Assembly: GCA_903930145.1 (NCBI GenBank)
Contig: CAIYXP010000283.1
Location: 1 to 48,765, forward strand
Reading direction: 5' to 3'
Length of the DNA stretch: 48,765 nucleotides
Source: an uncultured Methylococcaceae bacterium
GTDB taxonomy: Bacteria > Pseudomonadota > Gammaproteobacteria > Methylococcales > Methylococcaceae
The position numbers and the translations under genes are program-made. Shown one piece after another: positions 25,617 through 42,179 of this stretch; position 1 is the first letter of the stretch; the number at the start of each line of letters is the position of its first letter. The notes under the pieces are model-generated. The model was not told the DNA's origin, made no database searches, and saw only the letters and a program-made list of their open reading frames with translations.

Positions 25617-26393
25617 ATGATCAACAAAATTCGCAGGGCGGTATCGGTCAGCCTAGGCATAGCCGTAGTCATGGGTGTTTCCACTGATGCCAGTGCTGCT
25701 AACGTCGTAACGACGTGGGGTCCATTGACTGTCGCGGGGTTCACGGGTAGCGGAAGCGTCCCAAGATACGCATGGGATGGAAACAATAATCGCTCATCCA
25801 TCACCGGGAAGTTCAACTATGGTTGGCAGCACAATTCAGATTTTTATCTATTCAGCGTTGCCGATGCGAGCAGCGTGGGCATTAAAATGACCTCGCCCGT
25901 AGGGGGCATCAACCCCGCATTCACCCTGTGGACTGCGACCAGCCGCGGCGTTGGCCATACCTATAACCAGGTAGGCCCCACCCCTTATTTTCTGCCAGAC
26001 GGCGAATCGGGCTTTGTGGGTTACGCCAATGCCGGTCCCACCGGCTGGACCAATGGGTACGGCTTGGATGGCTCCGGCCTGGGGGGAGTCGTAGGGACAG
26101 GTTCGGGGGGAACCGCCACTGTCGCGGCAGCCACAAGCACCTCTGCCGGGCTTGCCGATTTGGTGATTGGCAGTCTTGGCCCCGGCAATTACATGCTGGG
26201 GGTGGGAGGCAGTTGCAATACCGCAGCCCCCCCTTGCAGTGTGTCGACTGCCGGCTTCTCCTACAATTTGTCGCTCACCAATCTAGGTGCGCCAGTTCCC
26301 ATCCCTGCGGCGGTTTGGCTGTTTGGCAGCGCATTGGCCGGTCTTGGCTGGGTGGGTCGCGGCAAAAGGAAACCACCGGCGCACGATGCCTGA
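25617..26393 (+). CDS. Secreted GYANAGPTGW-family protein with PEP-CTERM-like tail
   Basis: A 258-residue protein with a signal peptide ending near DASA-AN. Family blocks: YAWDGNNN, HNSDFYLF, NPAFTLW, GYANAGPTGWTNGYG, then a late YMLGVGGSC strand. The tail is VPIPAAVWLFGSALAGLG followed by a basic GRGKRK. Its 3' end overlaps the start of the first pseudopilin-like gene by 8 nt, which links this family directly to the secretion locus. It is a paralogue of 19817-20635 and 40223-41485. Function unknown. Confidence 0.86.
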   Translation: MINKIRRAVSVSLGIAVVMGVSTDASAANVVTTWGPLTVAGFTGSGSVPRYAWDGNNNRSSITGKFNYGWQHNSDFYLFSVADASSVGIKMTSPVGGINPAFTLWTATSRGVGHTYNQVGPTPYFLPDGESGFVGYANAGPTGWTNGYGLDGSGLGGVVGTGSGGTATVAAATSTSAGLADLVIGSLGPGNYMLGVGGSCNTAAPPCSVSTAGFSYNLSLTNLGAPVPIPAAVWLFGSALAGLGWVGRGKRKPPAHDA

Positions 26394-27321
26394 TAACCTT
26401 CCGCTGAGTCTCAACGCAGCCATAGAAGTGGGCTATTCTCGCCGCAAGGGGGCTGGACTGACTTCAGTGCCGTTGTCCGCTTCCCCCCCCCCTCGCAGAA
26501 TGCGTGGGGTGACGTTGATCGAATTGGGGATGGTATTGCTAATCTTGGTCGCCTTGGCGGGGTTGTTGGTTCCATACGCCCAAAATTCCGGTGGCATCGC
26601 CGAATGCGTGGCGACGGACGCATCGCTTGTCGCCATCCGCGATGCGATCATGGGGAGCGGTGCCCAGTCCGGCTATTTGAGCGACACAGGGACATTCCCT
26701 AGGCATCCAGGCGTTGTGCCAGCCAATGTCAATCCTTATAGCCTGCATTATTTATTTAACGATTGGAATGGAAATGCCGAGCTTTCCAGCAATTCTTGCA
26801 TGAGCGAACCCACCGCGTCAGACTGCACCCACCTTCCACACTTCAACCCGACCACTCAACGCGGTTGGCGCGGACCCTATCTATCCAATTCCAGCAACTG
26901 TGGCAGCCTACCTAAGCAATACGCCGCACCCTGCCCACCTAAGCTAAGCCCATTGTTTGCCGTGTGCAAAATCGGTTTGCCTGATCAGTATGCGGAATGC
27001 GGGAGCGGCAGTTGCGCCGGCGAATGCAATGCGTGCGGGCTGTGCCAGACCAATGCCGGCAGTTCTTCCAACTATGTGCATGGCGGTCTTGGTGTGGCGC
27101 TGGACGCTTATCCGTTGATGGGTCCCACCGGCATGCAGCCTGTGCGTACCCCCATTCAACTGTTCAGCGACTCTCAAGGTCACCATTATCTGGTTTCCGC
27201 CGGGCGTGATAGCGTGACCTACCTGAGCAATGGTGTTGACCCCAGCGCCAATTTGCGCGGCGACGACCGGGTGCTGTACCTGGACAGCAACGACCCATGG
27301 GGTAATAAGCCGTGCCAATGA
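26386..27321 (+). CDS. Large pseudopilin-like protein 1
   Basis: A 311-residue product from the ATG at 26386, which overlaps the preceding stop (ATGCCTGA). A later ATG at 26500 would give a two-residue leader directly before the processing site. The prepilin signature is G-VTLIELGMVLLILVALAG, with Glu at position 5 of the mature protein. The globular part is far larger than GspG/H-type pseudopilins and carries a Cys-rich patch around CGSGSCAGECNACGLCQTN. In type II systems such proteins form the periplasmic pseudopilus after cleavage by a GspO/PilD peptidase, which is not in this window. The stop overlaps the next start as ATGA. The starting leader is uncertain. Confidence 0.8.
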   Translation: MPDNLPLSLNAAIEVGYSRRKGAGLTSVPLSASPPPRRMRGVTLIELGMVLLILVALAGLLVPYAQNSGGIAECVATDASLVAIRDAIMGSGAQSGYLSDTGTFPRHPGVVPANVNPYSLHYLFNDWNGNAELSSNSCMSEPTASDCTHLPHFNPTTQRGWRGPYLSNSSNCGSLPKQYAAPCPPKLSPLFAVCKIGLPDQYAECGSGSCAGECNACGLCQTNAGSSSNYVHGGLGVALDAYPLMGPTGMQPVRTPIQLFSDSQGHHYLVSAGRDSVTYLSNGVDPSANLRGDDRVLYLDSNDPWGNKPCQ

Positions 27322-28727
27322 ATGTGCGACATCGGCTTGCGGGGTTCACCCTGATTGAAATGATGGTGGTTCTCACCGTGATGGCAATCACCATGACCGT
27401 GCTATTGCAAGCCTCATCTGGACGGCAAGACCAAGTCCGCTATAATCAAACGGTGGAGCGCTACGACCGAATAAAGAAGGCCATCGTCGATGTCAGCAAC
27501 CTGAACGGCATTCCAATGGTCAGCGGGTTCGCTGCGGACATGGGGAGGTTGCCGATGAACTTACATGAACTGATGGAGCCACAACTCTGTCGGGCGGACA
27601 TCGCCAGCACAGATGAAGCAAACTGCGAGGGTGGCTGGCTTGCATTGGCCGCTTGGGGGGTCAAATCCATATGCGCAGACGGTTCGCCGCAGAATGGACA
27701 GCAGGCCACTTGCAGTATCTCTGTTTGCCCCGACGGGTCGCCGCAAAATGGCCTGCCTCCGACCTGCACCATCAACAATCCATCGCCTACCACTTTAGCA
27801 GTCTCATTGAATGCCGGCTGGCATGGGCCGTATTTTCAATCCACTCAAAACCCTTCCCATGTCGATATCTACAGCAAAGGGTCCGACGCCTTCACCGACG
27901 GATGGGGGAACGAAGGCTACAACACCGACAGGTCCTTTCCCGACCCTCGGCATAATTATGGTTGGTATTTGAATTGGTTGGGCAGCAGTGAAACCGGCTA
28001 TAACCCTCGTTGCGCACCCGCAGGCGTCGTGGTCAGTCGCGGCAATTGCCTGACCGTGTTCAGCTATGGCAATGGGTGTTTTAGGGACTCCTCGCTGTGC
28101 AAAGGCAACAACGCCGCGCCCGAAGCCTTGGATTTTACCTATCCACTATCGGCATCGCCACCCAACATCGGCATGGCCTATGACCCCAGCCTAAATTTGG
28201 CGATTACCCCGGACCTTTATCAAGTCTCTGTCTACGGCTTGACATTGCCCGCCGGTGGCCTGCCCGATTTGCCACCGCCCATGGTCAGGCCAAACGAATG
28301 GCAGGTGGACATCGGCAGCCCTAACACAGTCAATGTACTGATTGCACCCAAACTCTGTAAACCACTTGGAGCGACAGGAGTGACAGTAGAGGACTGCAGC
28401 GTAACTCCAGTACCACTGTGCTTGAACATCTACCATATTGCATCGGACGATCAACGCAACCCCGTGGCGGCTGTTGTCAGCAGTGGTGTCAGCAGCATTG
28501 GCCCACCGACGGTTCCTGCAACGATTCCAGAGAACGGCATGGCATTGCAGGTAAGTTTTGCATTTCCGTCGGGGACAGTCATCCCGGCGGGAAATGCTGC
28601 GATTAGTGTTCATGCCGGACCTTGCACGTCTCCGAATGGCACAAGCACTTTGACTTATCCGTCAACCGGTCGCCAAGCCGTGCCGGTCAAAATCCTGCCG
28701 GGCCGACCGCTTTCCCTCGCTTGGTGA
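27318..28727 (+). CDS. Large pseudopilin-like protein 2
   Basis: A 469-residue protein from the ATG at 27318 (ATGA overlap with the previous stop; a GTG 6 nt upstream is possible). The leader MNVRHRLAG is followed by FTLIEMMVVLTVMAITMTV with Glu5, the prepilin signature. The ectodomain of more than 430 residues is exceptional for the family. Around residues 119-155 there are two copies of a C(A/P)DGSPQNGxxxTC motif 18 residues apart. The C-terminal portion (about 330-469) is Pro/Val/Thr-rich and looks Ig- or fibronectin-like. I infer a minor pseudopilin at the tip or one with an adhesive head. The gene is followed by a miniature mobile element. Confidence 0.8.
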   Translation: MNVRHRLAGFTLIEMMVVLTVMAITMTVLLQASSGRQDQVRYNQTVERYDRIKKAIVDVSNLNGIPMVSGFAADMGRLPMNLHELMEPQLCRADIASTDEANCEGGWLALAAWGVKSICADGSPQNGQQATCSISVCPDGSPQNGLPPTCTINNPSPTTLAVSLNAGWHGPYFQSTQNPSHVDIYSKGSDAFTDGWGNEGYNTDRSFPDPRHNYGWYLNWLGSSETGYNPRCAPAGVVVSRGNCLTVFSYGNGCFRDSSLCKGNNAAPEALDFTYPLSASPPNIGMAYDPSLNLAITPDLYQVSVYGLTLPAGGLPDLPPPMVRPNEWQVDIGSPNTVNVLIAPKLCKPLGATGVTVEDCSVTPVPLCLNIYHIASDDQRNPVAAVVSSGVSSIGPPTVPATIPENGMALQVSFAFPSGTVIPAGNAAISVHAGPCTSPNGTSTLTYPSTGRQAVPVKILPGRPLSLAW

Positions 28728-28751
28728 AGCTATCGGCGGTTTACCCGATGG

Positions 28752-28954
28752 CAGCAATTTTTGGTAATGCCATTAAGTCAGCGTTAGTAGTTCCGCCTTT
28801 AGGCGGAAGCCAACCCCGAAAAGACCGGGTAAAGCCGGGACTACAAACGATTTTGACAGGCTAAAAATCCTTAGCTTAATGGCAGTGGTCCATGGCATGG
28901 ATTCCGGCATCCATGCCGGAATAACGGGGTTTAAATTCAAAATGGGAATTGCTA
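28752..28954. mobile_element. 203-bp miniature inverted-repeat element
   Basis: The left end CAGCAATT (28752) mirrors the right end AATTGCTA (28954), and the flanks ACCCGATGG / ACCCAATAG look like a decayed 9-bp target duplication. Inside are the hairpins TTCCGCCT-TT-AGGCGGAA (28791-28808), a GTAGTTCC...GGGACTAC frame (28787-28844), and ATTCCGGCATCCATGCCGGAAT (28901-28922). Its right part is closely similar to the element inside hsdM at 45567-45773. No ORF. Confidence 0.65.
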
Positions 28955-29142
28955 ACCCAATAGTGACCTGCGGGACCATCTGGTGAGTATGTCGCGGCTT
29001 AGCGTGATGCAAGGGGTGGAGTCACGAGTGACTGGCATCTTGCCGACACCCCATGACTATTGGGGGGTAAATTGGTTTTAAAATCTGCGGTTAATTACCG
29101 CCCATTCATTGAGAAACTAGGAGGCAAAGCAACCCTTATAGG

Positions 29143-29176
29143 TGTGTCATATAACACAACGCTGTGTCATATAACC
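29143..29176. promoter_or_regulatory. Tandem dyad operators upstream of the pseudopilin/secretion operon
   Basis: TGTGTCATATAACACA at 29143-29158 is followed exactly 20 bp on by TGTGTCATATAACC at 29163-29176, so both lie on one face of the helix. The dyad is nearly identical to the one at 6488-6503. They sit about 60-90 bp upstream of a candidate promoter, which suits an activator. Confidence 0.55.
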
Positions 29177-29232
29177 TATTTAATGGGGATAAAAAATAAG
29201 ACTTTCCATTTATTCCAATTTATATTAATTAC

Positions 29233-29262
29233 TTGCATATTAGGTACAGTATATGCTATATG
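29233..29262 (+). promoter_or_regulatory. Candidate sigma-70 promoter with extended -10
   Basis: TTGCAT (29233-29238) is followed after 18 bp by TATATG (29257-29262), preceded by TGC (extended -10). This is about 90 bp before the next start codon in an AT-rich stretch. The spacing and the AT-rich surroundings support it. Confidence 0.45.
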
Positions 29263-29355
29263 TTTTTAATAATAGTTAGTGAGAACTTTTTAGTATGCAA
29301 TGGATCATAGCCTGAGGCTTTCTGCTTACTTTGACCTATTAATTGGAGCAATACC

Positions 29356-30417
29356 ATGAACGAGAAAACATATTATTTCACGCCTACAACGTCTGCCTTG
29401 CAGCGCGGCCTGACCCTCATCGAATTAGCCGTCGTATTGGCTATTTTGGTCGCCCTGTCCACGCTGATGATTCCGTATGTTGGCAATTTTATCGGGAAAT
29501 CCGAGGTAGCCACCAGCAACTACAATTCAGCCGCCGTGTTGAATGCCATGCATCAGTATTATGCGCAATACGGTGTTTACCCTAACAATTTGGATTTGCT
29601 GTCGGACGGTAAGAAACCCGTGGCTTATTTGGATGACACCGTACAGGTTGGCCGGCCAGGATGGGTGAAGGCTGGTGCGTCTGGGGCGACCAGCACGAAC
29701 TTCGGGGTGATGCAAGACAATGGAGCGATGTCGGCCTCGATGGCCAAGGTGGGGGTGACGAAATATTTCTACCAGAAAGCAGGCACACCGACCCAAGACA
29801 CCGTCTCGGGCGAATGGTATATCAAAGATGACAAAACCGGGGCGCGTTTTGATGCCACTTACGGCTCTCAAGACACCAGCAATGCCGCCGGCGAGGGAGG
29901 GCAACCAAAACAAGGTTATGGGCTGAACGGCGAGGTGATTTTGTCAACCGGCCCCTATGGCACTCAACAGCGCGTGATGTGGGTGGCGGACAATTGCAGT
30001 GGGTACTGGGAGTTTGGCCATCCTGAGTGCCTTGCCAACATATTGGGTTACCGTAATTGCAAAATCGAACGGGGCGGGGTCTGCCCGGAATTGACCGATT
30101 CACAAGGTAACAAGGTTAGGCAAGGTGAACAGCATATGTTGATTTTGCTGGGCATCAACGCCAACAATGAGATGATCAACAAGACCATCGCCACCGCACC
30201 GGTGCATTTTCCTGAGAATAAATCCACCAACCCCTCATTGGTTTATAGCCGATTCCTAGCGGTGTTCGATGTGGACATGCGGGCCGATTGTTGGCTGGAT
30301 TCGATCGGCTGCGATCCCGCGAAACTGGTCGGTGTGGTGGTCGGCCCGGATGCCAACCGAGGCTGGCAGACCAGTACCACGGGTATGCAGCGTGCGCTCA
30401 AGCCAGCCACGGAATAA
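29356..30417 (+). CDS. Large pseudopilin-like protein 3
   Basis: A 353-residue protein; GGAG lies 8 nt before the ATG. An 18-residue leader ends in Gly, followed by LTLIELAVVLAILVALST with Glu5, the prepilin signature. The segment after the helix (ATSNYNSAAVLNAMHQYYAQYGVYP) matches the alpha-1C/loop region of GspG- or MSHA-like pilins, so this may be the major subunit, although the ectodomain is again oversized. A Cys-containing region follows (CSGYWEFGHPECLANILGYRNC). It has its own promoter region and a terminator-like hairpin after it. Confidence 0.82.
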   Translation: MNEKTYYFTPTTSALQRGLTLIELAVVLAILVALSTLMIPYVGNFIGKSEVATSNYNSAAVLNAMHQYYAQYGVYPNNLDLLSDGKKPVAYLDDTVQVGRPGWVKAGASGATSTNFGVMQDNGAMSASMAKVGVTKYFYQKAGTPTQDTVSGEWYIKDDKTGARFDATYGSQDTSNAAGEGGQPKQGYGLNGEVILSTGPYGTQQRVMWVADNCSGYWEFGHPECLANILGYRNCKIERGGVCPELTDSQGNKVRQGEQHMLILLGINANNEMINKTIATAPVHFPENKSTNPSLVYSRFLAVFDVDMRADCWLDSIGCDPAKLVGVVVGPDANRGWQTSTTGMQRALKPATE

Positions 30418-30514
30418 TTGTGAGGCAGTCCGGCAAACCCTAGCGTGATGTCCAATGGGTGAGGCGCTAGGTCAAACAGCTTGAGGCAAACGCCCGACTG
30501 AGGGGCAAAGGGAC

Positions 30515-30535
30515 AAGGGGCGCACTGCGCCCCTT
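30515..30535 (+). terminator. Hairpin terminator candidate after pseudopilin 3
   Basis: AAGGGGCG pairs with CGCCCCTT around the loop CACTG, followed by a weak GACTGTTGTT tail. The rest of the 30418-30678 gap shows no gene. Read-through into the secretion operon is possible. Confidence 0.5.
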
Positions 30536-30678
30536 GACTGTTGTTGAATGCTGATTGTCGGATACCGTCTGGCTTGGCATTTCACCAGATTAGGCGACAT
30601 AACCCAATCGTTAAGAGCGAACATTCTCAAGCCAGCAGTAAAGCTCTCATTCGTTTACCTCCGATAGGTTAAATTTCA

Positions 30679-32184
30679 TTGACGGATACTAAGGTTTCAT
30701 TGGCAGAGTCTGCAAAAGGCTTGCAGCAATTGATTCACCAAGCCAGCTTGCCCTTGGAGCAAGCAAGGCGTCTACTGCGTGGCAACCGTCCGGCGTTGAC
30801 ATTGCTTTGTTCGGTCAACAACCAGTTCGTCCGGGCTGAGGTGAATGACAAGGGTGAGCTATTGGGTGAACCGCAGCGATTGGCGGTCGAATACTACACC
30901 ATCACCGATCTGCCTTCGGCAATAACCACTGTATTGAAAAGCGACCAACCCCTAGGCCGGCAGCTTTGGCTACTCCACGACGCTTTGCCAAACCACACGG
31001 TTGAACTGCCTTCCGGGCAAGTGGCGGGGCTGAGTGATGAACAAATCAATCAGGCACTGCTGTTTGAACTGCAAGAACTCAGCGGTATCGTCACCACCAA
31101 CTTACAGTCTTCCCACGTATTGCTGGCTCAAGTGGAGGCCCAGAACCTGTACCTGCTTAGCCACGCCCCCAAAACCCTGATGGCGCAATTACGGCGTGTC
31201 GCCCGCGAATGCGGTTGCCGGTTTGCCGGCCTGATGCATCCAGGCGGTTTGCCCTATGGGATAATCCACGACAAACAGCCAAACGCTTGGGCCAGATTGG
31301 AGAGGTGGGCGGACGTGCTTATCGGCGTGAATGGGGATGGTCAAGGCCACTGTAAACTGTGGGCCATGCAGTCTGGCGCGAAACCGAAGCGGGTGCAGAG
31401 CGAGGTCGAGCGCTGGAGGCTGGCACTGGGCGACAAGATTCATTGGGAGTCGTTGGGGGAGGGCATGGCGATGGATTTCCTGCCGGAGCAAACGAGGGCA
31501 GTGAGCTTGGACCGGGATGACACGCTGGGCTTATGGCTGTCGGCTTGGGGGCGAACCCTGGCCGGCGGCAAACCCGCCCATCTACCGGCATTAGTCCCGC
31601 CCGATGATCCCAACCGTGAACGCTGGCTGATGGCGGCCGGTGCTTCGGTGGCGCTGGCACTCTGCTTATTGCATTTCGGCTGGCAGTATCGGCGCGAGCA
31701 TAGCTTGGAATCCGACAAGGTATTTTTGAAGGGAAGCGAATCCCAGATTCGAGGTTTGGAAACGGAAGTGGGGCGCTACCAGAAGCAACGCGATGAAATG
31801 GCAAAAAAACTTGAACCGGGCATGAGAGGGAGGGCCGCGGCGACCCCTGAGGTGCTCGCCGCGCTACGCCAGAGGTTGACGGCCCTATTGCGCGAAATTG
31901 CGGTCAATTCAACCGATGGTGTGGTCATTGAGGAGATTCGGACCAAGCCTGAGGCAACCATCGTCAAGGGTATCAGCCTAAACGCCGCCGAAGCCAACAA
32001 GCTGGCTTCGGCTTTGGAGGCGAGGCTGCGGGGTTTGGGCTGGCGCATCGAGCCACCCCGCAAGAAAGATTTGGCGCTGGACGCCGGGGGCGGGCCTTGG
32101 GAGTTTGAAATCCTGTTATCGGATGCCGGTTCGTCCGGCTACCCCAACGCCCCCAAGCCTCAAGCAACAACAGTCGCCAAGTGA
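30679..32184 (+). CDS. GspL / PilM-PilN-like inner-membrane assembly protein
   Basis: A 501-residue protein beginning at a TTG; no ATG is well placed, so the start is uncertain. The N-terminal roughly 300 residues look like a degenerate actin-like (PilM/GspL cytoplasmic) domain. A transmembrane helix lies at about 315-333 (WLMAAGASVALALCLLHFGW), then a coiled coil (about 340-380) and a ferredoxin-like periplasmic domain, as in GspL or a PilM-PilN fusion. Known role: it couples the cytoplasmic ATPase to the inner-membrane platform. The stop overlaps the next gene's GTG start. Confidence 0.75.
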   Translation: MTDTKVSLAESAKGLQQLIHQASLPLEQARRLLRGNRPALTLLCSVNNQFVRAEVNDKGELLGEPQRLAVEYYTITDLPSAITTVLKSDQPLGRQLWLLHDALPNHTVELPSGQVAGLSDEQINQALLFELQELSGIVTTNLQSSHVLLAQVEAQNLYLLSHAPKTLMAQLRRVARECGCRFAGLMHPGGLPYGIIHDKQPNAWARLERWADVLIGVNGDGQGHCKLWAMQSGAKPKRVQSEVERWRLALGDKIHWESLGEGMAMDFLPEQTRAVSLDRDDTLGLWLSAWGRTLAGGKPAHLPALVPPDDPNRERWLMAAGASVALALCLLHFGWQYRREHSLESDKVFLKGSESQIRGLETEVGRYQKQRDEMAKKLEPGMRGRAAATPEVLAALRQRLTALLREIAVNSTDGVVIEEIRTKPEATIVKGISLNAAEANKLASALEARLRGLGWRIEPPRKKDLALDAGGGPWEFEILLSDAGSSGYPNAPKPQATTVAK

Positions 32185-32810
32185 TTAAGCTCAACCCGCA
32201 GCAACGTAATAAACTTTTAATGCGCGTTTTCCCCGCGCTGTTGATACTGGTGGTATATTTTGTCTTCATAGGGCCCAAATTCACGGCCCAAGCCGAACGT
32301 GCCGAGAGGGAGGTTCAACAGATGAAGGACGCTTACCAGTTGGGGCAGGTAAAAATATCCAACTTGACCCAGCAGAAGGATCAACTGCTGGCTGAATTAG
32401 CAACATTGCGACAGTCTAGCGCCAAGCCCGAGGCCGAAGCAAATCGCCAACCCGGCTTTCTGGAACAGTCGGACTATGCCAGCCAAGCCATCAGCCGTTT
32501 GAATGAGAGCTTGGCAAACCATCGGCTGCGCGTCATCGAGGACGGCAGGCAGGCTTGGAGCGCTGCCAAGGATAGCTTACCGGTAACCGTGAACGAGTTG
32601 GGCAAACCCTCGCAACCATCCCTCCAAGACAAGGGTGGCGATGGCGGCTCTGCCCTCTGGCGGGTACGCTTCAGCGGCACTTACCCGGATGTTTACCGGG
32701 CTTTGGAAGACCTCGCCCGTGACGACTTGTCGATCATTCCGGTATCCTTGGAAATGGTTGCGCCGGACGGCGACGGAGACATGGAATGGATACTGCAAAT
32801 TTGGATTTAA
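32181..32810 (+). CDS. GspM / PilO-like inner-membrane protein
   Basis: A 209-residue bitopic protein with a GTG start inside GTGA, overlapping the previous stop. One transmembrane helix (about residues 15-31) is followed by a coiled coil (about 35-80) and a small ferredoxin-like domain (about 110-209; LWRVRFSGTYPDVYRALEDL). This is the PilO/GspM/MshJ architecture. It is expected to pair with the preceding GspL-like protein. Confidence 0.75.
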   Translation: MIKLNPQQRNKLLMRVFPALLILVVYFVFIGPKFTAQAERAEREVQQMKDAYQLGQVKISNLTQQKDQLLAELATLRQSSAKPEAEANRQPGFLEQSDYASQAISRLNESLANHRLRVIEDGRQAWSAAKDSLPVTVNELGKPSQPSLQDKGGDGGSALWRVRFSGTYPDVYRALEDLARDDLSIIPVSLEMVAPDGDGDMEWILQIWI

Positions 32811-34639
32811 ACCAAACCCTAACGATTAAAGATCGGTGTATAAGCATGAACCTAACCAGCCCAGACGGGCATTTACCGGCAACACCGCACACGGAAAGAC
32901 GGCTACACCAGCGCACCCCCGCCAGCGATGGCTGGATGGTGGAAATATTTCCGCCGGGAGGCGGCAAAGAAATGGAAGCAGATGTCATCAACCACTCGGC
33001 CGGCGGCATTGAGTTGCTGGTCAATAAAGGCGTTGCCGACTTACTTAATGTTGGCGACAGCGTGGTCTTGCGCATCCATAACCCTGACAAGACATTCTCC
33101 CGGCAATCCAGCATGAGCTGGGCGAGCAAAGAAGAAGGGGGGTTCTATTGCGGGTTCAACTTTATTGATGTCACACGCTTTGATCCCAAGGATCACGAAT
33201 TGCGCATATCCGAGATTCGCATTGACCCCGCCTGCGCATTGAAAATTCCCGCCTCGGTCGCCTTGCGGCGGCGTGTGCTGCCCTTCGCCCAAATGGATAA
33301 TATGATCCATGTCGCTTGCGAAGACAAGGACAACAGCGCCACGCTCGATACGGTCGAACGCCTGCTGAAAGCGGATGTGCAATTCTGGGAAGTGGATGCC
33401 ATCGAATTGAAGCAGATCTTGCGCCGTGTCTACGGGGACGGCCTGTTGACCACTCCGACCGGCACTCAGGGCGGGCAAGATGTCGCCGCAGTGGGCGACG
33501 AATTGCTCTACGCGGCTTATCTTCGGCAAGCCTCTGACATCCATATTGATCCCTGGCCTAAGAGTATGGTGGTCAGGTTCCGCGTCGATGGCAAGCTAGA
33601 ACTCCACAGCGAATTGCCGCCCGGGATGCAGATCGAATTGGTCAGCCGATTTAAAGTATTGGCAGGCATGGATATTGCCGAAAGACGAGCACCACAAGAC
33701 GGACGCTTCACCTTCTCCCCGCCTGGCCATAGCATCCAAATCGACATCCGCGCGGCAACCTTGCCGACCAAATACGGGGAGAGAATGACCTTGCGTCTAT
33801 TGGCGCTGCAAACCGAGTCATTGACCTTGGATCGGCTGGGCTTGGAGTCCACCTGTCGGCACTCCATCGAATCATTCCTACGGCGCAGCCAAGGCATGAT
33901 GATCCTCACTGGGCCGACAGGGAGCGGCAAAACCACCACGCTTTACGCCAGCATCCGCTTACTGCTGACCGAGCGCAACCTCAATGTAATGACCATCGAA
34001 GACCCGATTGAATACGCCATTGAAGGCGTCGCCCAGTGCGAAGTGGACGGCGCGGACAAGGTCAGCTTCGCCAAGGCGCTGCGCAGCATTTTGCGCCACG
34101 ACCCGGACGTGGTGATGATCGGCGAGATTCGCGACCGGGAAACTGCCGAAATCGCCATGAAAGCCGCCTTAACCGGACACTTAGTGTTGTCCACCCTGCA
34201 CACCAACTCGTCTGCGGCAACCGTTTCCCGTCTGCTGGATATTGGCCTTGAGCCTTACCTTGTGGCGGGCACCTTGCGCCTGGCCATTTCCCAGCGCCTG
34301 AGCCGCAAGCTGTGCCGACATTGCCGCATTCCAAGAGGCTTGACCGAAAGCGAGGCAAGCCTATTGAACCGCCCACATTTGGTAGGGCAGACCATCTATG
34401 AACCCGGCGGCTGCATTTATTGCGCCGGCCGCGGCTACAGTGGACGGATTGGCCTTTACGAGCTGTTGGAAATGAACGCGGCTTGGTCGCGTGAAATCGC
34501 CGAAGGCGCGGGCGAAAGCCGGTTGCAAGAAAATATGCGCGAGGCCGGGGTAAGCTTTCTTGAAGACGATGCGATTGCCAAATTGTTCAATGGTTCGATC
34601 TCCTTTGGCGACACCTTGCAAATCGTCAATTCATGGTGA
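32786..34639 (+). CDS. PilZ-domain GspE/PilB/MshE-type secretion ATPase
   Basis: A 617-residue protein. Residues about 38-130 are a PilZ domain: RLHQR (RxxxR) and NHSAGG ((D/N)xSxxG), the two c-di-GMP-binding signatures, are intact, and FYCGFNFIDV closes the domain. Residues about 150-215 match only the second half of the usual GspE N-terminal domain (ALKIPASVALRRRVLPFAQ). The T2SSE ATPase follows: Walker A GPTGSGKT at 376-383, Walker B with IGEIRD at 445-450, and two CxxC pairs (CRHC, CIYC) of the zinc-binding tail. GGAG before 32786 supports this start, within the previous gene; an ATG at 32846 is an alternative. It drives pseudopilus assembly. The PilZ fusion implies c-di-GMP control. Confidence 0.9.
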   Translation: MDTANLDLNQTLTIKDRCISMNLTSPDGHLPATPHTERRLHQRTPASDGWMVEIFPPGGGKEMEADVINHSAGGIELLVNKGVADLLNVGDSVVLRIHNPDKTFSRQSSMSWASKEEGGFYCGFNFIDVTRFDPKDHELRISEIRIDPACALKIPASVALRRRVLPFAQMDNMIHVACEDKDNSATLDTVERLLKADVQFWEVDAIELKQILRRVYGDGLLTTPTGTQGGQDVAAVGDELLYAAYLRQASDIHIDPWPKSMVVRFRVDGKLELHSELPPGMQIELVSRFKVLAGMDIAERRAPQDGRFTFSPPGHSIQIDIRAATLPTKYGERMTLRLLALQTESLTLDRLGLESTCRHSIESFLRRSQGMMILTGPTGSGKTTTLYASIRLLLTERNLNVMTIEDPIEYAIEGVAQCEVDGADKVSFAKALRSILRHDPDVVMIGEIRDRETAEIAMKAALTGHLVLSTLHTNSSAATVSRLLDIGLEPYLVAGTLRLAISQRLSRKLCRHCRIPRGLTESEASLLNRPHLVGQTIYEPGGCIYCAGRGYSGRIGLYELLEMNAAWSREIAEGAGESRLQENMREAGVSFLEDDAIAKLFNGSISFGDTLQIVNSW

Positions 34640-34709: not shown

Positions 34710-35924
34710 GTGACTGAATTTCAATATACGGCCAGAAGCCAGTCAGGCGAGCAGATTGTCCAAAAACAGTCGGCGGAATCCCGCGAGGCGCTGATTCGAG
34801 AATTGCGCCAGCAAGGCTTGTTGGTGCTAGAGGTCAAGTTGGTGAAATCCAAGGCCGGGCGAAAGATAAGCCTGAACCCGTTGGAATACCTTTCGATCAA
34901 TTCACTTGATGTCGAGCGTTCGTTCTATCAATTGGCGGTGCTGCTGCGTAGCGGGTTGCCCATCTTGGAGGCACTGGAATTCATCCGCGATTTTTCACGG
35001 CCGGGCGTGCGCCGGGTATGGCAAACCATGGTTGAACGCATCAACGACGGCGACAGCCTAAGCGCCGCCATGGCAGAGCATAAGGTGTTCATGAACATGA
35101 CCTTGCAACTGGTGCGGGTCGGCGAAAGTTCCGGGCAACTCGACCATGTGCTGGAGCAAGCCTCCATCGCCATGGAACGTCGGCGGCTGAACCGCAAACA
35201 AGTCTTCGCGGCGTTAAGATACCCTGCTTTCATGATTTTGTTCGTCATCGGCATTATCGTGTTCATGATGAAAAAGCTGATCCCCGAACTGAAAAAATTC
35301 ATCAACACCATGGGCGGCAAGCTCCCGCCCATCACTCAGGCGTTGATTGATGTGTCTAATTGGTTTGAGAATTACGCCGGCATGTTGGCCTTGGGCATTG
35401 CCGCAACCGTGATTACGGTGATGCTACTGTACCAAGTGCGTCCAATACGCTTTCAAATGGACCGCTTTGTGCTGGGCTTGCCTGTGTTTGGACGCTTATT
35501 CCGGCTTTCCGGCACGACGACGCTGGCACAAAACCTCGGCATCCTCTTGCTGAGCGGGGTGCGCATATTGGATGCCTTGGTCACGATAGAGTCGCTCATC
35601 GGCAATCGGTTTCTCGCCAGCAAAGTCCGCTACGCAAGGGAGCGTGTCGCCCAAGGCTCCACCTTGGCAGATCCCCTGGCGGAAGACGATGTATTTATGC
35701 CGATGTTGACACGGATGATTCGGGTTGGCGAAAAATCGGGCAGGCTGGATGTCATCCTCCAAGAATTGGGGAAGCATTTCGAATTTGAACTCCAAGGCAT
35801 GATTGTATTCATGAGTAGTTTGATTGGGCCGGTGATGACCATTGTCGTGGGAGGCATCATCGGCTTTGTTTATGCGGCCTTTCTGGTGGCCATGTTTGCC
35901 GCCGGGTCTGGGTCGTCCAAATGA
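34710..35924 (+). CDS. GspF/PilC/MshG-type inner-membrane platform protein
   Basis: A 404-residue polytopic protein with a GTG start. Two T2SSF cytoplasmic helical domains (about 70-190 and 275-395) each contain the LRSGxPIL/LLSGVRIL and GExSGxLDxxL repeats. Transmembrane helices lie at about 170-190, 220-243 and 375-397. It is the platform on which the ATPase works. Its stop overlaps the next start as ATGA. Confidence 0.92.
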   Translation: MTEFQYTARSQSGEQIVQKQSAESREALIRELRQQGLLVLEVKLVKSKAGRKISLNPLEYLSINSLDVERSFYQLAVLLRSGLPILEALEFIRDFSRPGVRRVWQTMVERINDGDSLSAAMAEHKVFMNMTLQLVRVGESSGQLDHVLEQASIAMERRRLNRKQVFAALRYPAFMILFVIGIIVFMMKKLIPELKKFINTMGGKLPPITQALIDVSNWFENYAGMLALGIAATVITVMLLYQVRPIRFQMDRFVLGLPVFGRLFRLSGTTTLAQNLGILLLSGVRILDALVTIESLIGNRFLASKVRYARERVAQGSTLADPLAEDDVFMPMLTRMIRVGEKSGRLDVILQELGKHFEFELQGMIVFMSSLIGPVMTIVVGGIIGFVYAAFLVAMFAAGSGSSK

Positions 35925-36583
35925 TGCAGCGCTTACTATTGACATTGATCATCACCGCATCATCACCAGGCCATGGCCAACCCATTCTGCTGCCTAATTC
36001 AGCCAACCCCAAGCCATCTGCCAATCCCAGCCCAGGCTCTGCGCCTCAGCCGGCCGCCACGGCGGCAAATTACCCGGCGGCCTCGCCACCTCCTGCCAAC
36101 ATGCAGCGGCAAGCTGTGTCCATGCCACCACCCTCCGCCGCTGCCAATGCCCTGCCGCAACCGCCCATGCCCACCGACAGCAAGCCCGGCATTGCCGCTC
36201 AACCCGTCGAGGTGCCGAAACCTGCCATGGCCAGTGTGCCAAAAACTTCGGTGCGTGAGATTAAAGACCCAACCGACATGTCGCCTAGGTTCCGGCAGGC
36301 CATGAAACAGATGGTCCCAAGCGGGGGCAAAGGGGGCAACGCAGCAGACAGGATAACCCTGCCAGAGATTCGTTTGGCCGGAAGAAGTCTGGGCGGCAAA
36401 CACGGTGGGGCCACCGCCCTGATTCAAATCAAGGATGCCCCGCCCTTTCTGGTGCGTCCGGGTAGCCAGTTTTCGGTGCCCTCCCCGTCGGGAGACAGCT
36501 TGACCATACGGGTTGAATCGATAGACGAAGGCAGCGTCCAACTGGTGGTCTTGCCCTATAATCGGCGGCTATTTATCAACTAA
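35921..36583 (+). CDS. GspC/PilP/MshK-like periplasmic linker protein
   Basis: A 220-residue protein with a short hydrophobic N-terminus, a Pro/Ala-rich linker (about residues 20-110) and a small C-terminal beta domain (ATALIQIKDAPPFLVRPG, then TIRVESIDEGSVQLVVLP) with the outline of the GspC homology region or PilP. In related systems this domain contacts the N0 domain of the secretin, which is encoded next. The identification rests on architecture and position, not on strong motifs. Confidence 0.65.
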   Translation: MMQRLLLTLIITASSPGHGQPILLPNSANPKPSANPSPGSAPQPAATAANYPAASPPPANMQRQAVSMPPPSAAANALPQPPMPTDSKPGIAAQPVEVPKPAMASVPKTSVREIKDPTDMSPRFRQAMKQMVPSGGKGGNAADRITLPEIRLAGRSLGGKHGGATALIQIKDAPPFLVRPGSQFSVPSPSGDSLTIRVESIDEGSVQLVVLPYNRRLFIN

Positions 36584-36637
36584 CCGTTGGATCGTTTCCT
36601 TAATTGCCAGAATCAGACCCATTTATTAATTAGATTG

Positions 36638-38962
36638 ATGCAAATCCTCCGCAACAAATTTGTACGAACTGCCTTCTGGGTATTGATTTTGGTAGCCACC
36701 GCCGCCGAGGCACCCTCCACCACCGCCGCACCCGGTTCAAGGGGGAATGTGTTGATCAGCGAAATCGACCTGCGCGACATCACCGTAGGCGATGCACTGC
36801 GGATTTTGTCCACCCAGTACGGCATCAATGTGGTGGCATCGGAGAAAGCGTCCAAGATCAAAACCGCGTTATTTCTACGCGATGTCAAGCCAATGGAAGT
36901 GCTTGACGCACTGTCCAAGTCTTATAACTTGTGGTACGAGGAAGACCCGCAGTCGAAGATCATCCGCATCTTCACCGTGGACGAGTTCCGCATGGGCCAG
37001 GTGGAAGCCGTCCCGGACGAAACCGAGATTTTCACCATGCGGTATCCGAATGCCACTGACGTGGCTTATGCGATCCGTAATTTGTTCGGGGACCGCGTCG
37101 CCCTGAGCGAGGCGACCAATCAATTGGAAGTCGCCCAAGAATTGCAAGCCCGGTTTCAGCGCTTTGACTTGGTTGACCGGCGCAGGTCGGGGGTTGGCAT
37201 GACATCGGGCGCATCAGGCAGCAGCGGCGGCGGTGGGGGCGGTGGGGGCGGCGGTGGCAGCGGGGGTTTGAACAGCACGGGGCGCGGTAGTAATTCCAAC
37301 CAATCCCGTGCCGACCAGAGTGATATCGAGGAAGCCATGGGAAGCACCAAAAGGTTTACGGGCGATACCAGCACGCAAGGAGCGTTTTCAGGCCAAGCAA
37401 GCGAGGGCAAAGGGGCCATAGGAGAAGTCATGCGCCGACTTTCGCCCATTTACGTCACCGTCATCCGTTCGCAGAACCGGGTATTGGTGCGCACCCGCGA
37501 CCCGGAGGCGATGGCACAAATCCGTTCCTTGGTGAAAAAGCTAGATGTCAGCCAGTCCAGTCTGCTGATGGAAGTCAAGGTGCTTTCCGTTGACTTGTCT
37601 GATGGCTACCGTTCGGCATTCGATTTCATACTCAATGCGGGCGATTTTGCGCTGGCCGGCCTGCCCGGCGTGCAGCCCATCGCCGGCACGGCATTGTTGG
37701 CAGCGGTGGTGAACCAAAAATTCACCGCCAATTTGCAATTATTGGAGAGGGAGGGCCGCATTACCGAACTCGCCACTCCGATGTTGATGACCAGTAACCA
37801 AGAGGTTAGCCGGGTTTTCGTCGGCGAAGAGCGGCCCATCGTCACCGGATACACCAGTTCAAGCCCGACAGGGGCTGGCCAGATCGGAGGCATTGGTTCG
37901 TTCGCGACGCCTATTCTCGTCCCGCAAATCCAAACCAGGCCGCTGGGCACCACTTTATTGCTGACACCGAACATCAACGCCGACCGCACGGTCAATATTC
38001 GCATGGTGATCGAGCAGTCCAGCCTGGCCGCCGACAAGGCGGTGATCGAAATCCCCAATACCACTGTGCCCGATGCCCAGCCTGCCTCTGCAAAGATCGA
38101 TGTCGTCAAGTCACAGACCTTCAGCGGTACGATACTGGGCAAGGACGACATTGCCACCGCCGTCGGTGGCTTGATTCAAGACTCGGCAATCGACAGACAA
38201 ACCAAAACGCCTGTTCTAGGCGACGTTCCCCTGCTTGGACTCTTGTTTAAAGACGACGAAAGTCTTCGCGCACGCAGGGAGTTGATCATCATCATCAAGC
38301 CGCATATTTTGGAAACGCCTTCCGAGAGCGCCGAAGTCAGCCAAGAATTCCTGCACAACGAGAGCGTCCATCCCAATGCAAGGGCCATGGGCGGCAACAT
38401 GGACATTTACCGCAATCCGGGCCGTCACCACGACGATTACACCTTGCAGCAGCGTTACAAATTCTATGACGACCAAGACCAATTCGACCCCTACCATCGG
38501 CGGACGCGCAACCCGGATGAGGAACCTTCGATGCCGCCGAACGCCCCACCGGCCTTTCCACCCCGCAACGACGGTGCGCAGGCCGATGCCAACCCACAAG
38601 ACTATTTGGGCCTGACCCGCTTTGCCGCCCTCGCAATCCGTCAGCCCGACGCGGGCAAGAGTCCGCCCAAAGGCATTACCGAGGCCGGGTTGATTTACGC
38701 CAATGGCGAACGCCTGTTGGATGACCAGCGCCTGCAACTGGAACCGATGGAAGGCTGGAAAAAGGGCAATCTGTATGTCACCACCGTTGAAGTCAGTAAT
38801 CGCACGGATAAATCCGTCAATGTCGATTACAGCCAAGTGCGCGGTCAATGGTTAGCCTCGACCATCGAGACCCCCCGTCTGGCCCGCAAGGGAATGGCGG
38901 GTGACAAGACCTATTTGTATCTAGTTTCCAAGGAGCCGTTTCATGAAGCGCTACGCCGATAA
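36638..38962 (+). CDS. Secretin (GspD/PilQ/MshL-like) with extra C-terminal domain
   Basis: A 774-residue protein from the ATG at 36638, which gives a proper signal peptide (TAFWVLILVATAAEA); a TTG 17 codons upstream is less likely. An N0/STN-type domain (LRDITVGDALRILSTQYGI) is followed by an N1-type domain, a poly-glycine linker (about residues 195-205) and the secretin domain at about 375-560, ending in PVLGDVPLLGLLFK and IIIIKPHILETP. A further roughly 210 residues follow: an Asp/Arg/Pro-rich spacer and a small folded domain (about 670-770) that is not part of standard secretins. It forms the outer-membrane channel. It overlaps the next gene by 20 nt. Confidence 0.9.
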   Translation: MQILRNKFVRTAFWVLILVATAAEAPSTTAAPGSRGNVLISEIDLRDITVGDALRILSTQYGINVVASEKASKIKTALFLRDVKPMEVLDALSKSYNLWYEEDPQSKIIRIFTVDEFRMGQVEAVPDETEIFTMRYPNATDVAYAIRNLFGDRVALSEATNQLEVAQELQARFQRFDLVDRRRSGVGMTSGASGSSGGGGGGGGGGGSGGLNSTGRGSNSNQSRADQSDIEEAMGSTKRFTGDTSTQGAFSGQASEGKGAIGEVMRRLSPIYVTVIRSQNRVLVRTRDPEAMAQIRSLVKKLDVSQSSLLMEVKVLSVDLSDGYRSAFDFILNAGDFALAGLPGVQPIAGTALLAAVVNQKFTANLQLLEREGRITELATPMLMTSNQEVSRVFVGEERPIVTGYTSSSPTGAGQIGGIGSFATPILVPQIQTRPLGTTLLLTPNINADRTVNIRMVIEQSSLAADKAVIEIPNTTVPDAQPASAKIDVVKSQTFSGTILGKDDIATAVGGLIQDSAIDRQTKTPVLGDVPLLGLLFKDDESLRARRELIIIIKPHILETPSESAEVSQEFLHNESVHPNARAMGGNMDIYRNPGRHHDDYTLQQRYKFYDDQDQFDPYHRRTRNPDEEPSMPPNAPPAFPPRNDGAQADANPQDYLGLTRFAALAIRQPDAGKSPPKGITEAGLIYANGERLLDDQRLQLEPMEGWKKGNLYVTTVEVSNRTDKSVNVDYSQVRGQWLASTIETPRLARKGMAGDKTYLYLVSKEPFHEALRR

Positions 38963-40193
38963 AATATGCAAAGGATTGCTGTTCTTCCCGGCCTTATGGT
39001 CATGGCCGCTGCCGGGTGGGTGCGATGCGATTGACCAGCAGCTAGAGCGGAATATGCATGTGTTTGCCCATGGCCCGTCCAAACCGGGAAATTCCGGTCA
39101 AACCCTTGCCTACGAACGCGGGGTGGGGGTGCAAGCCCAGATGGTGGTGTTTGACCGCATGGGCCATGCCTATTCCCCGCAGCGTGTGGCCTTAGGCCCA
39201 TTGCCGCCCCCCCAAGCCGCGGCCGAACCGCCACTGACCGAATACCCCCGCCACCCGAAGCCCCCCAAGCCTAGTTGGGAGCTTGACTATAGCTTTACTT
39301 CGGGGTATCGGGAGGATAGGCTGAATTGGAATATTGCCGCCCCAAACTACTATCCTTGGTTCGGCCATCCCAATGTACTATCTGAATTGAAATGGGAAAA
39401 TATACAGTCCGCACAGATTGCCGGCAAGGCTGAAATAACGTCTCCCGGCGGCTGGCATTTCCAAGGCAAAGTAAACTACGGTTTCATCACGGCCGGGAAA
39501 CAACAGGATTCCGACTATCAAGGGGACAACCGCACACTTGAATATTCGCGATCCAATAATTCGGCAGACGGCGGCCATATGTTGGATGCATCCATCGGAA
39601 CGGGTTATCGCTTCGCCATGCGCGACAAGGAGGGTAATGTCCAGTTGGGTGCCACGCCCTTGGTGGGTTATTCCTATAATGAACAGTATCTAACCGGAAC
39701 CAATTTATTACAAACTGTTTCAGTGCCTTCAATATTCTGGTGCGATAATAGTCAGTCCACAACACCCTGCAATGGGCCGGCCCTCAGGCCATATCCTGGC
39801 TTGGACGAACGTTATACTGTTCAATGGCACGGGCCTTGGCTAGGTTTCCGGTTAACTGCGCAACCCCTGGACTGGATGGAGCTGTTTACCCAGTACGAGT
39901 ATCACTGGGTTAATTATTACGGCAAGGGCACTTGGAATCTCAGGCCAGAATATGCACAACCATATAGTTTTAAACACTATGCCGATGGAGGGGGAATGAC
40001 GGTCAGTGCAGGGCTTCGATTTAAGCTAACACCTGCTTGGGCGTTTGATCTCGACGCTAATTACTCGGAAATGACCACCAATTCCGGTACAGATAATACC
40101 TATTGGTCGGCTGGTTATGTGACCTCACAAAAATTTAACCGGGCGGTTTGGGAGTCTTATGGAGCCAATGCGGGTATACGTTACCGTTTTTAA
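38943..40193 (+). CDS. Outer-membrane beta-barrel protein of the secretion locus
   Basis: A 416-residue protein with an N-terminal signal sequence and a Pro-rich segment (about 85-110), then alternating amphipathic strands from WELDYSFTSGYRED to a C-terminal Phe (NAGIRYRF). The strand pattern (LSELKWENIQ, GWHFQGKVNYGFI, IGTGYRFAMRD) recalls omptin-like 10-strand barrels, but no catalytic residues are recognisable. Its start lies inside the secretin gene, so it belongs to the same operon. It may assist surface display or anchoring of the secreted product; that is inference. Confidence 0.7.
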   Translation: MKRYADKICKGLLFFPALWSWPLPGGCDAIDQQLERNMHVFAHGPSKPGNSGQTLAYERGVGVQAQMVVFDRMGHAYSPQRVALGPLPPPQAAAEPPLTEYPRHPKPPKPSWELDYSFTSGYREDRLNWNIAAPNYYPWFGHPNVLSELKWENIQSAQIAGKAEITSPGGWHFQGKVNYGFITAGKQQDSDYQGDNRTLEYSRSNNSADGGHMLDASIGTGYRFAMRDKEGNVQLGATPLVGYSYNEQYLTGTNLLQTVSVPSIFWCDNSQSTTPCNGPALRPYPGLDERYTVQWHGPWLGFRLTAQPLDWMELFTQYEYHWVNYYGKGTWNLRPEYAQPYSFKHYADGGGMTVSAGLRFKLTPAWAFDLDANYSEMTTNSGTDNTYWSAGYVTSQKFNRAVWESYGANAGIRYRF

Positions 40194-40222: not shown

Positions 40223-41485
40223 GTGGATAACAGACTGTACAAAATCTTGTTGAAAACTCTTGTTCTATTGGCGTTTTTGGGGGTTTCCAGCCAAGCCAAT
40301 AGCGGTTGGTATGTCACTGACTTAGGAACCTTAGGCAATAAGCCTTTGTTCAACAATACCAATCCCGGTCTACGCCACGGATGGGATGGGTCTTATTATG
40401 CAATCAAGCTTGGCAGGGTGAATACAACCTTGTTCTATCGTTTCAAGATTATGGCTACCTCCGATGTTGAAATCAGGGTGGCGGCGATTGGGAAACCCTG
40501 CCATCAAAATACCTTTATTCCAGCTTTTACCGTTTGGGCTACGGCGGGTAGTTTCGACATTGTCAAACACGCTGACCAATCTGTTTATCCCCGTCCATAT
40601 TCTCCATGGGGGTTTGTCGATTGGGTTTACAACGGTGTCCAAGGTGCGCCCACAAACTTGAGCACTGGCCCTGCATGTCAGTCCGGTCAGTGCAATTCTA
40701 ATAACTGGTTGGCCCCAGGCGTTAGCGGTGTCAGTGCCTCGGACGGCATTACCACTCTGGTGGGCTATGCCAACGCGGGTCCGACGGGATGGGTAAACGA
40801 CAACGGTGACATAGTCGGCTCCGGCAGGGTGGGCAGCGATAATCAAGGCCCACTGGAAGGCTTAGTGCTTGTGCAAGGCCCGAATTATGATCCAGACCCA
40901 ACCAATACGGTGCAATATGCCTCATTGAAGCTGTACAATTTGTCACCCGGAACTTATGTCATCGCCTCAGGCGGTAGCTGCCGAGACCCAAACGCTTGCG
41001 CCATGAAGCCGGGGGTGTATTCCACCAATAATGATTACAGCATTACCGTCAGCACCTTGACCGATCAGTGGGGAGTCATTCCGCAGCCGACAACAACACC
41101 GCCAAACCAAACAACATACCCCTCTTCCAGTGGCGGGGAATCTGGTTCGCAAGCAACGGTAACAAATCCGGCAGTGAACCGATATTTTGGCAATGTCAGG
41201 GTTGATTCGTTATTACCATTGATTTCAAATGCATCTGTCTATTGGGATGCGACTGGTTATGAACAATTTGCTGTAGAGGTGGAGTGGTTTATTCCATGGG
41301 TTTATCCTGTTCTTCGTCCGCCAATCATTGTGAATACCCATAGTGTGGTATTTAACTTGGGTAATATCGCTCTTATAAGTGCGATTCGGGTAACTCCGAT
41401 GCAAGATGGGTATCCAGTCAGTTCAATGGCGATTACCATACCCTATACTCAATTCACCTATAAACCGTCACCCTTTTTTTTCTGA
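40223..41485 (+). CDS. Secreted GYANAGPTGW-family protein without sorting tail
   Basis: A 420-residue protein. I place the start at the GTG at 40223, because GAGGA lies 7 nt before it and a clean signal peptide follows (to NSGWYV); an upstream ATG within the barrel gene is less plausible. The body shares GWDG, PAFTVW, GYANAGPTGWVNDNG and the late YVIASGGSC strand with 19817-20635 and 25617-26393. Unlike these it has no PEP-CTERM-like tail; a Thr/Pro/Ser-rich linker (about residues 285-315) leads to an extra C-terminal beta domain of about 100 residues. It ends in a run of Phe. It is a candidate final substrate or surface partner of the machine. Confidence 0.8.
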   Translation: MDNRLYKILLKTLVLLAFLGVSSQANSGWYVTDLGTLGNKPLFNNTNPGLRHGWDGSYYAIKLGRVNTTLFYRFKIMATSDVEIRVAAIGKPCHQNTFIPAFTVWATAGSFDIVKHADQSVYPRPYSPWGFVDWVYNGVQGAPTNLSTGPACQSGQCNSNNWLAPGVSGVSASDGITTLVGYANAGPTGWVNDNGDIVGSGRVGSDNQGPLEGLVLVQGPNYDPDPTNTVQYASLKLYNLSPGTYVIASGGSCRDPNACAMKPGVYSTNNDYSITVSTLTDQWGVIPQPTTTPPNQTTYPSSSGGESGSQATVTNPAVNRYFGNVRVDSLLPLISNASVYWDATGYEQFAVEVEWFIPWVYPVLRPPIIVNTHSVVFNLGNIALISAIRVTPMQDGYPVSSMAITIPYTQFTYKPSPFFF

Positions 41486-41499
41486 TTTAATGAGTCAGC

Positions 41500-41841
41500 A
41501 TGATTAGTATAATTTTCAATAAGTTTTGCCCACCCTTATTGGGATTGTTATTGCTACAAGGCTGCACCTCCGCGCCCGTGAATGTGTTTCCCCTGCCCCC
41601 TGCCCATTATCAAATACTGGGCAGGGTGGAGGGCATGGGTTGCGGGACACAGTTATTGGGGTTTATTCCCATCCTATTCAATACCCGCGTGGAACGGGCT
41701 TATCAGGAGGCTGTCGGAATCTTGCCCGGTACACTTTCGTTAATCCATGTCCGTGTTCGCGAAGACTGGTTTTGGTGGGCGATAGCCACCAACCGTTGCA
41801 CGCTGGTCACCGGCGATGCCATTGGAAGGGCCAAGTTATGA
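41500..41841 (+). CDS. Small lipoprotein, TRL-like
   Basis: A 113-residue protein with a lipoprotein signal (LLQGC, Cys22). The mature part (GMGCGTQLLGFIPI, RVERAYQEAV, TLVTGDAIG) matches the outline of TRL-like lipoproteins. Its stop overlaps the next start as ATGA. It may be an accessory lipoprotein of the secretion operon; no pilotin-specific motif is seen. Confidence 0.65.
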   Translation: MISIIFNKFCPPLLGLLLLQGCTSAPVNVFPLPPAHYQILGRVEGMGCGTQLLGFIPILFNTRVERAYQEAVGILPGTLSLIHVRVREDWFWWAIATNRCTLVTGDAIGRAKL

Positions 41842-42179
41842 ACCGTTGGCTAAAGCGACTGATGAGCCTATTGTTGACCGGTGTTCTGCTCGGCTGCACC
41901 GGCGAGTGGATGAGGATTGATGACATCGCCGACACCGGTAGCCTGGATAGGAGCATGGGCAGGAAAATCACCGCGACCGCATCAGGGTTCCAGTTGTTTT
42001 TCGCACTCCCCACCAATGCCAGTTCGCGTCATGCAAGGGCTTTCCAAGCTTTGCGCGACCAAGCCTATAATGAAGCCATTGCCGATGTCACTATTCAAGA
42101 GTCGTGGACATTCGCGGTGATCGGCATGGTTTATACGACGACTATCGACGCCACAACTTACCCTAGGCGGCGATGGTAG
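41838..42179 (+). CDS. Small lipoprotein, TRL-like paralogue
   Basis: A 113-residue protein with lipobox LLGC (Cys20). The segment RAFQALRDQAYNEAIADVTIQ corresponds to the helical part of its upstream neighbour, and both proteins have the same length, so they look like a duplicated pair. The ATG overlaps the previous stop. It is the last intact gene before the mobile-element zone. Confidence 0.62.
   Translation: MNRWLKRLMSLLLTGVLLGCTGEWMRIDDIADTGSLDRSMGRKITATASGFQLFFALPTNASSRHARAFQALRDQAYNEAIADVTIQESWTFAVIGMVYTTTIDATTYPRRRW

Follow-up and report, generated by a model that had tools for sequence, protein, structure and literature searches.

A type II secretion-like locus of a Methylococcaceae bacterium combines a TraK-type secretin tail with a Pom-family outer-membrane barrel

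The window analysed here, a stretch of 48,765 nucleotides from an uncultured Methylococcaceae bacterium (assembly GCA_903930145.1, contig CAIYXP010000283.1, forward strand), carries on its + strand a locus resembling the type II secretion system (T2SS), with the gene order PSP1-PSP2-(repeat)-PSP3-L-M-E-F-C-D-Pom-GYA3-LP1-LP2 (Table 1); the machine itself, which is complete, occupies 26386-40193. All the genes listed in the initial annotation are present at their positions, both small lipoproteins have lipoboxes, and a gene of the GYANAGPTGW family (GYA2) does precede the first pseudopilin gene with an overlap of exactly 8 nt (25617-26393 against the ATG at 26386). That the frames mostly overlap was right for GspL/M (4 nt), GspM/E (25 nt), GspF/C (4 nt) and GspD/Pom (20 nt), but the series is broken between PSP2 and PSP3 by a geneless stretch of 628 bp (28727-29356) that holds a dispersed repeat. 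Chance can be ruled out as the origin of this arrangement, because orthologous loci exist in many genomes. The novelty lies in the secretin's TraK-type tail together with its barrel partner, an undescribed build of a well-known type of machine.

Table 1. Features of the locus, with the profile matches and other evidence on which each assignment is based
Feature	Position	Strand	Evidence and remarks
GYA2, GYANAGPTGW family, PEP-CTERM-like tail	25617..26393	+	absent beside PSP1 in relatives
PSP1, large pseudopilin-like, 311 aa	26386..27321	+	ATG start 26386; motif RG/VTLIE (slash marks the break in the motif)
PSP2, oversized pseudopilin-like, 471 aa	27312..28727	+	GspH-like N-terminus; PF07963 E=7e-7; conserved
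PSP3, large pseudopilin-like, 353 aa	29356..30417	+	GspG-like N-terminus; conserved
GspL-like assembly-platform protein, 501 aa	30679..32184	+	assigned from position and conservation
GspM-like, 209 aa	32181..32810	+	NF040576 XpsM E=0.001, T2SSM E=0.09 (both weak); conserved
GspE-like ATPase, PilZ + MshEN + T2SSE	32786..34639	+	PF00437 8e-111, PF05157 3e-10, PF07238 2e-5
GspF-like inner-membrane platform protein	34710..35924	+	PF00482 1.5e-49; GspF 267 bits vs PilC 235
GspC-like, 220 aa	35921..36583	+	C-terminal ~105 aa conserved
GspD-like secretin, 791 aa, Gly-rich insert, C-terminal TraK/VirB9-type domain	36587..38962	+	PF00263 9e-29
Pom-family outer-membrane barrel, 416 aa, omptin-like fold	38943..40193	+	PF17251 E=2e-57
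GYA3, secreted GYANAGPTGW-family protein, without PEP-CTERM tail	40223..41485	+	not conserved in orthologous loci; candidate substrate only
LP1, small lipoprotein, 113 aa	41500..41841	+	lipobox LLLQGC
LP2, small lipoprotein, 113 aa	41838..42179	+	lipobox GVLLGC

The T2SS core components E, F, C, D, L and M stand together in this one locus (L and C assigned solely from position and conservation). Scored against the NCBIfam equivalog models, GspD (119 bits against a cut-off of 351), GspE (447 against 630) and GspF (267 against 424) come nearest to the T2SS yet remain far under the cut-offs, which places the machine in the type IV filament superfamily as a T2SS-like member; in that superfamily some chimeric or generic systems match no model (Denise et al. 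2019, PMC6668835). With the T2SS (Gsp/Xcp/Xps) it shares L, M, E, F, C, D, pseudopilins and its best profile scores; it differs in gene order, in its C-terminal TraK-type domain and Pom barrel (a PulS- or AspS-type S-domain was not recognised), and in having three large pseudopilins instead of G-K. None of the three passes an NCBIfam cut-off for GspG, H, I, J or K, PSP3 matching TIGR01710 with E=2e-6 at a score far under the cut-off. Pfam and NCBIfam profiles gave no match to the GspL-like protein, domain searches found no PDZ in the GspC-like protein, and Pfam gave no match to LP1 or LP2. The view that this is a dedicated, non-standard machine is borne out by the 6.0 Mb host assembly (G000), which has exactly three secretins by Pfam: the other two, identified by gene order, size and N-termini, lie in a pilM-N-O-P-Q run of a type IV pilus (T4P) on contig C296 and in a gspG-H-I-J-K-L-M...D run of a T2SS on contig C389.

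The secretin carries an additional C-terminal domain that, like the PilZ domain of GspE, goes beyond what the initial annotation described. Its residues ~673-789 (about 38603-38953) match positions 141-259 of TIGR03749, the TraK-like family of integrative and conjugative elements (ICEs), with E=4.7e-20, and the same tail matches PF11920 with E=1.3e-15. An AF2 model built from 13 orthologues has one helix and four strands with a core pLDDT above 90, the same elements as the C-terminal domain of F-plasmid TraK (PMC8770708). A sequence search of the PDB with the tail returned nothing and fold comparison alone succeeded: Foldseek gave two significant PDB matches, 7spb and 7oko, both from the outer ring of the F-plasmid type IV secretion system (T4SS), at probability 1.00. 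Because sequence and fold evidence agree, we identify the tail as TraK-type. The T4SS outer ring, built of TraK/VirB9 and TraV/VirB7 (F plasmid, PMC8770708; ICEs, TIGR03749 and TIGR03751), resembles the present system in the TraK C-terminal fold and in a strand motif of the partner; here, by contrast, only the C-terminal domain is found (the match leaves out the TraK N-terminal domain), it is fused to a true secretin, TraB/VirB10 and DNA transfer genes are absent, and the partner is a barrel instead of a lipoprotein. The window's gene run holds no TraB- or TraV-type neighbours, and a literature search of partial coverage found no paper joining a secretin with DUF3438.

The gene that follows the secretin encodes a member of the Pom family (PF17251, 195 bits against a cut-off of 22.4), and its AF2 model shows about ten long strands and, ahead of them, an N-terminal tail that is disordered apart from two low-confidence strands of five residues each (37-41 and 66-70). 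A PDB sequence search gave nothing useful; by Foldseek the barrel resembles the omptin OmpT (TMt 0.75-0.81). In machine-linked Poms the tail contains the motif h-x-M-x-V/I-F twice (RNMHVF and AQMVVF in the window); at three loci (L049, L050, L149) the second copy or both were read by eye in a relaxed form. In stand-alone Poms of other Gammaproteobacteria the barrel is preceded only by a signal peptide or by unrelated sequence, and the motif pair is absent. The Pom porins of Protochlamydia, of which PomS is a porin (PMC3561449), share the Pfam family and the barrel, whereas the machine-linked members have an N-terminal tail of 50-110 residues with two strand motifs and belong to a secretion operon. 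In another gammaproteobacterium (L143, 8910-13628) a Pom barrel forms the C-terminus of a 1572-residue protein.

The machine is patchy but conserved in Methylococcales methanotrophs. A protein search of 121 related genomes found its secretin family in 15, and a pattern scan of genome contigs found 28 loci, all in Methylococcales and relatives and some of them from the same genomes under their public names, including those of Methylobacter marinus, M. luteus and Methylotuvimicrobium buryatense 5G as well as a pseudogenised copy in a Gigantopelta endosymbiont. Among the named relatives that carry the machine, Candidatus Methylumidiphilus alinenensis (G006, locus L065) stands closest to the host; it is placed in the host's genus and belongs to a gammaproteobacterial methanotroph lineage. 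The set PSP1-3, L, M, E, F, C and D is conserved across loci, with PSP1 homologues in nearly all, and the positions of the PSP genes vary; a small open reading frame (ORF) between PSP2 and PSP1 in relatives, considered as a pilin, proved to be a Y1 transposase. Divergent machines occur in two other gammaproteobacterial families, one arranged L-M-PilT-E-F-C-D-Pom (L149) and one L-M-E-F-C-D without Pom (L151). A literature search, again partial in coverage, found no paper on this machine in methanotrophs.

Pom was found in 11 of the 121 relatives, each time directly after the secretin of this machine, and the secretin-borne tail domain in the same 11 genomes (Fisher p=8e-16), all remaining PF11920 matches being stand-alone TraK proteins; the barrel is thus part of the module, as the initial annotation had proposed. 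Among the named loci, every one with Pom has the tail and every one lacking Pom lacks it, the sole exception being L075, from a Gigantopelta methanotroph endosymbiont, where GspE and GspD are broken, the tail domain is kept, Pom is not matched and the machine is probably decaying. Weak profile matches in tail-less secretins trace back to the linker, which the profile also covered. A phylogeny of 33 loci, computed with IQ-TREE from the secretin core after removal of the tail, has seven changes of the tail and eight of Pom; in 7/7 independent pairs with differing tail states, the Pom state differs in step (sign p=0.016). A small PEGA-type lipoprotein follows the secretin at 8/13 tail-less tree loci as against 0/19 loci with Pom (p=1e-4), as would be expected if a lipoprotein partner and a barrel partner can replace each other. 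A precedent for such an exchange is E. coli, in which the S-domain type of the secretin and the type of pilotin match perfectly (PMC3542185). In pilotin/S-domain pairs (PulS-OutS, AspS) too, a C-terminal secretin segment co-occurs with an outer-membrane partner of the same genome; the present segment differs in being a folded TraK/VirB9-type domain, and its proposed partner in being an integral barrel with a tail and not a lipoprotein.

How the two proteins might meet is suggested by conjugation systems. In these and other Gammaproteobacteria, ICEs encode a TIGR03751 lipoprotein close to the TIGR03749 TraK, and this lipoprotein is likely the TraV/VirB7 counterpart of these elements; a strand of the type LVMYVFPH lies near its C-terminus in 22/22 ICE loci (L153 6284-6730, L154 4742-5299 and 20 others, L155-L174), where it is nearly invariant. 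With a position matrix built from these 22 sites, each Pom tail tested scored highest at the Pom motif, with a mean of 7.6 bits against 1.8 +/- 2.8 for random windows, a resemblance that is suggestive only, the Poms being related to one another. In the F plasmid the C-terminal part of TraV consists of a pair of antiparallel strands, connected by a loop, that is held between TraK C-terminal domains (PMC8770708), and by analogy the Pom tail may take the place of TraV.

Candidate cargo is encoded in the relatives. Directly after Pom, several loci encode a subtilase of 800-900 residues with a dockerin-like C-terminus; a full-length subtilase gene was found in 7/11 genomes with Pom (in one as decayed fragments) and in 0/110 others (p=5e-9), and one genome (G089) has broken copies of all three, secretin, Pom and subtilase. 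The linked subtilase appears, from genomic association, to be the best substrate candidate in these relatives. As for regulation, the PilZ domain at the front of GspE (32786-33180) has intact RxxxR and NxSxxG motifs, as do 14/15 Methylococcales ATPase orthologues checked (RxxxR and [DN]xSxxG), which suggests control of GspE by cyclic di-GMP (c-di-GMP); the ATPases of L048, L149 and L151 lack PilZ. The MshEN domain was discarded as the c-di-GMP site, being degenerate and without the RLGxxL motif.

Overall, we consider it probable, with some reserve, that the locus encodes an export machine of the T2SS type, the third machine of the type IV filament family in its host, with a TraK-type secretin tail and a docked Pom barrel, and this explanation, the best we have, builds on the observed gene content, domain homology and fold, co-inheritance and tail motifs. 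In such a machine the inner-membrane proteins L, M, F and C and the ATPase E would assemble a short fibre of the three large pseudopilins under the secretin ring, and the TraK/VirB9-type outer-ring domain on the secretin would replace the classical S-domain/pilotin pair. The periplasmic N-terminal tail of Pom would dock on that domain through its two short beta strands, as TraV-type lipoproteins do on TraK, and the Pom barrel would thereby anchor the secretin. Substrates would be folded secreted proteins encoded just past Pom, the subtilase in several relatives and possibly GYA3 here, and the ATPase would probably be under c-di-GMP control through PilZ. More tentatively, and with somewhat less conviction than doubt, we propose a new class of secretin assembly, in which a conjugation-type TraK/VirB9 domain, fused to a T2SS secretin, captures the TraV-like strand tail of an integral barrel, a ring of barrels surrounds or anchors the secretin, the lipoprotein pilotin is replaced, and a PEGA lipoprotein module can stand in for the pair.

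Known secretins reach or hold the outer membrane by means of lipoprotein pilotins or unaided. If the proposal is true, a co-inherited integral barrel would be a third solution to secretin anchoring, and two secretion superfamilies would be connected by a T2SS-like secretin whose outer-ring domain is shared with conjugation machines. The finding also offers a way into the hypothetical ICE lipoprotein family TIGR03751, a likely TraV counterpart. The machine's presence in Methylotuvimicrobium buryatense 5G, a cultured methanotroph, makes both the idea and the subtilase substrate directly testable.

Several observations weigh against the docked-barrel machine. AF2 models the Pom tail with low confidence (pLDDT below 50); the likeness of its motif to the ICE strand is moderate for each protein (single-protein p 0.0005 to 0.39); the window's genome lacks the subtilase, whose slot is occupied by GYA3; and the divergent L151 has the tail domain with no Pom in its genome, the sole discordant locus on the tree. 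Moreover, the domain region and pom are contiguous, so that one deletion or cassette swap could remove both without any contact between the proteins. On that account tail and Pom would be a cassette exchanged or lost by recombination, and Pom a porin unrelated to secretin assembly, consistent with the adjacency and 20 nt overlap of the genes here, with a perfect correlation arising from joint gain or loss in single events, and with the stand-alone Poms of other Gammaproteobacteria and the porin PomS (PMC3561449). We regard it as unlikely, since seven separate changes keep or remove the two together and the secretin stops close to one and the same domain boundary, the two-strand tail is limited to machine-linked Poms, and a different lipoprotein fills the slot at many loci when the pair is absent.

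It is improbable, too, that the locus encodes not a secretion machine but an adhesive pilus of the mannose-sensitive haemagglutinin (MSHA) or T4a-like type with the large pseudopilins as its surface fibre. Such a pilus would account for the MshEN-type N-domain of the ATPase, the counterparts of MshI/J/K/L/E/G, the matches of both the MshL (79 of the 250 bits needed) and PilQ models to the secretin, and the PilT-like ATPase gene between M and E in two distant relatives (L048, 8738-9817, in the Methylococcales genome G033, and L149, 2135-3244, which share this layout). PilT is, however, absent from the Methylococcales main group, this locus included (PilMNOPQ being on C296), the best models for E, F and D are those of the T2SS, though under their cut-offs, the gene set is L-M-E-F-C-D, and the relatives' operon encodes a secreted protease. 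From MSHA the locus further differs in its L-M-E-F-C-D order, in a secretin under the MshL cut-off and in that no MshM-, MshN- or MshA-like genes were seen here. A standard MSHA or T4P system was rejected, as complete T4P and T2SS sets lie elsewhere in the genome.

The initial annotation saw in the locus a specialised apparatus that exports or displays the GYANAGPTGW family, with a possible link to exosortase-sorted proteins, and this we now find very doubtful. GYA3 does start 29 nt past the end of Pom and GYA2 overlaps PSP1, and GYA3 lacks the PEP-CTERM-like sorting tail of its paralogues, so that another route is conceivable; the missing tail equally leaves the tie to exosortase sorting unsupported. 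Across the 121 genomes, however, GYA homologues occur in 5/15 with the machine and 39/106 without it (Fisher p=1.0), so that the family is usually found apart from the machine. No orthologous locus encodes a GYA protein, GYA3 has no orthologue, and two GYA paralogues lie on contig C305 (L060) with no machine there. The family was accordingly rejected as the cognate substrate; GYA3 itself is a possible, unsupported one, and GYA2 is probably a neighbour outside the conserved machine.

That Pom is an omptin-type outer-membrane protease processing the exported protein at its exit is hardly credible: the omptin fold and a weak profile alignment that pairs DxD and His of the window's protein with D83/D85 and H212 of OmpT from E. 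coli K-12 would allow it, but D210 is replaced by Phe and several Poms, that of Methylotuvimicrobium buryatense included, lack DxD, so that with this incomplete catalytic set protease activity is judged unlikely.

In the geneless stretch between PSP2 and PSP3, short dispersed repeats lie at 28740-28960, with 58 more partial copies genome-wide, some in tandem groups. Upstream of the machine, 18918-26393 encodes PEP-CTERM-type proteins, GYA1/GYA2 and two TPR-sulfotransferases. Downstream, at 42291-47936, inspection by eye revealed mobile-element gene fragments (an ATPase-like ORF of the insertion sequence-associated kind and an IS630-type transposase-like ORF) and, on the - strand, a type I restriction methylase-like gene.

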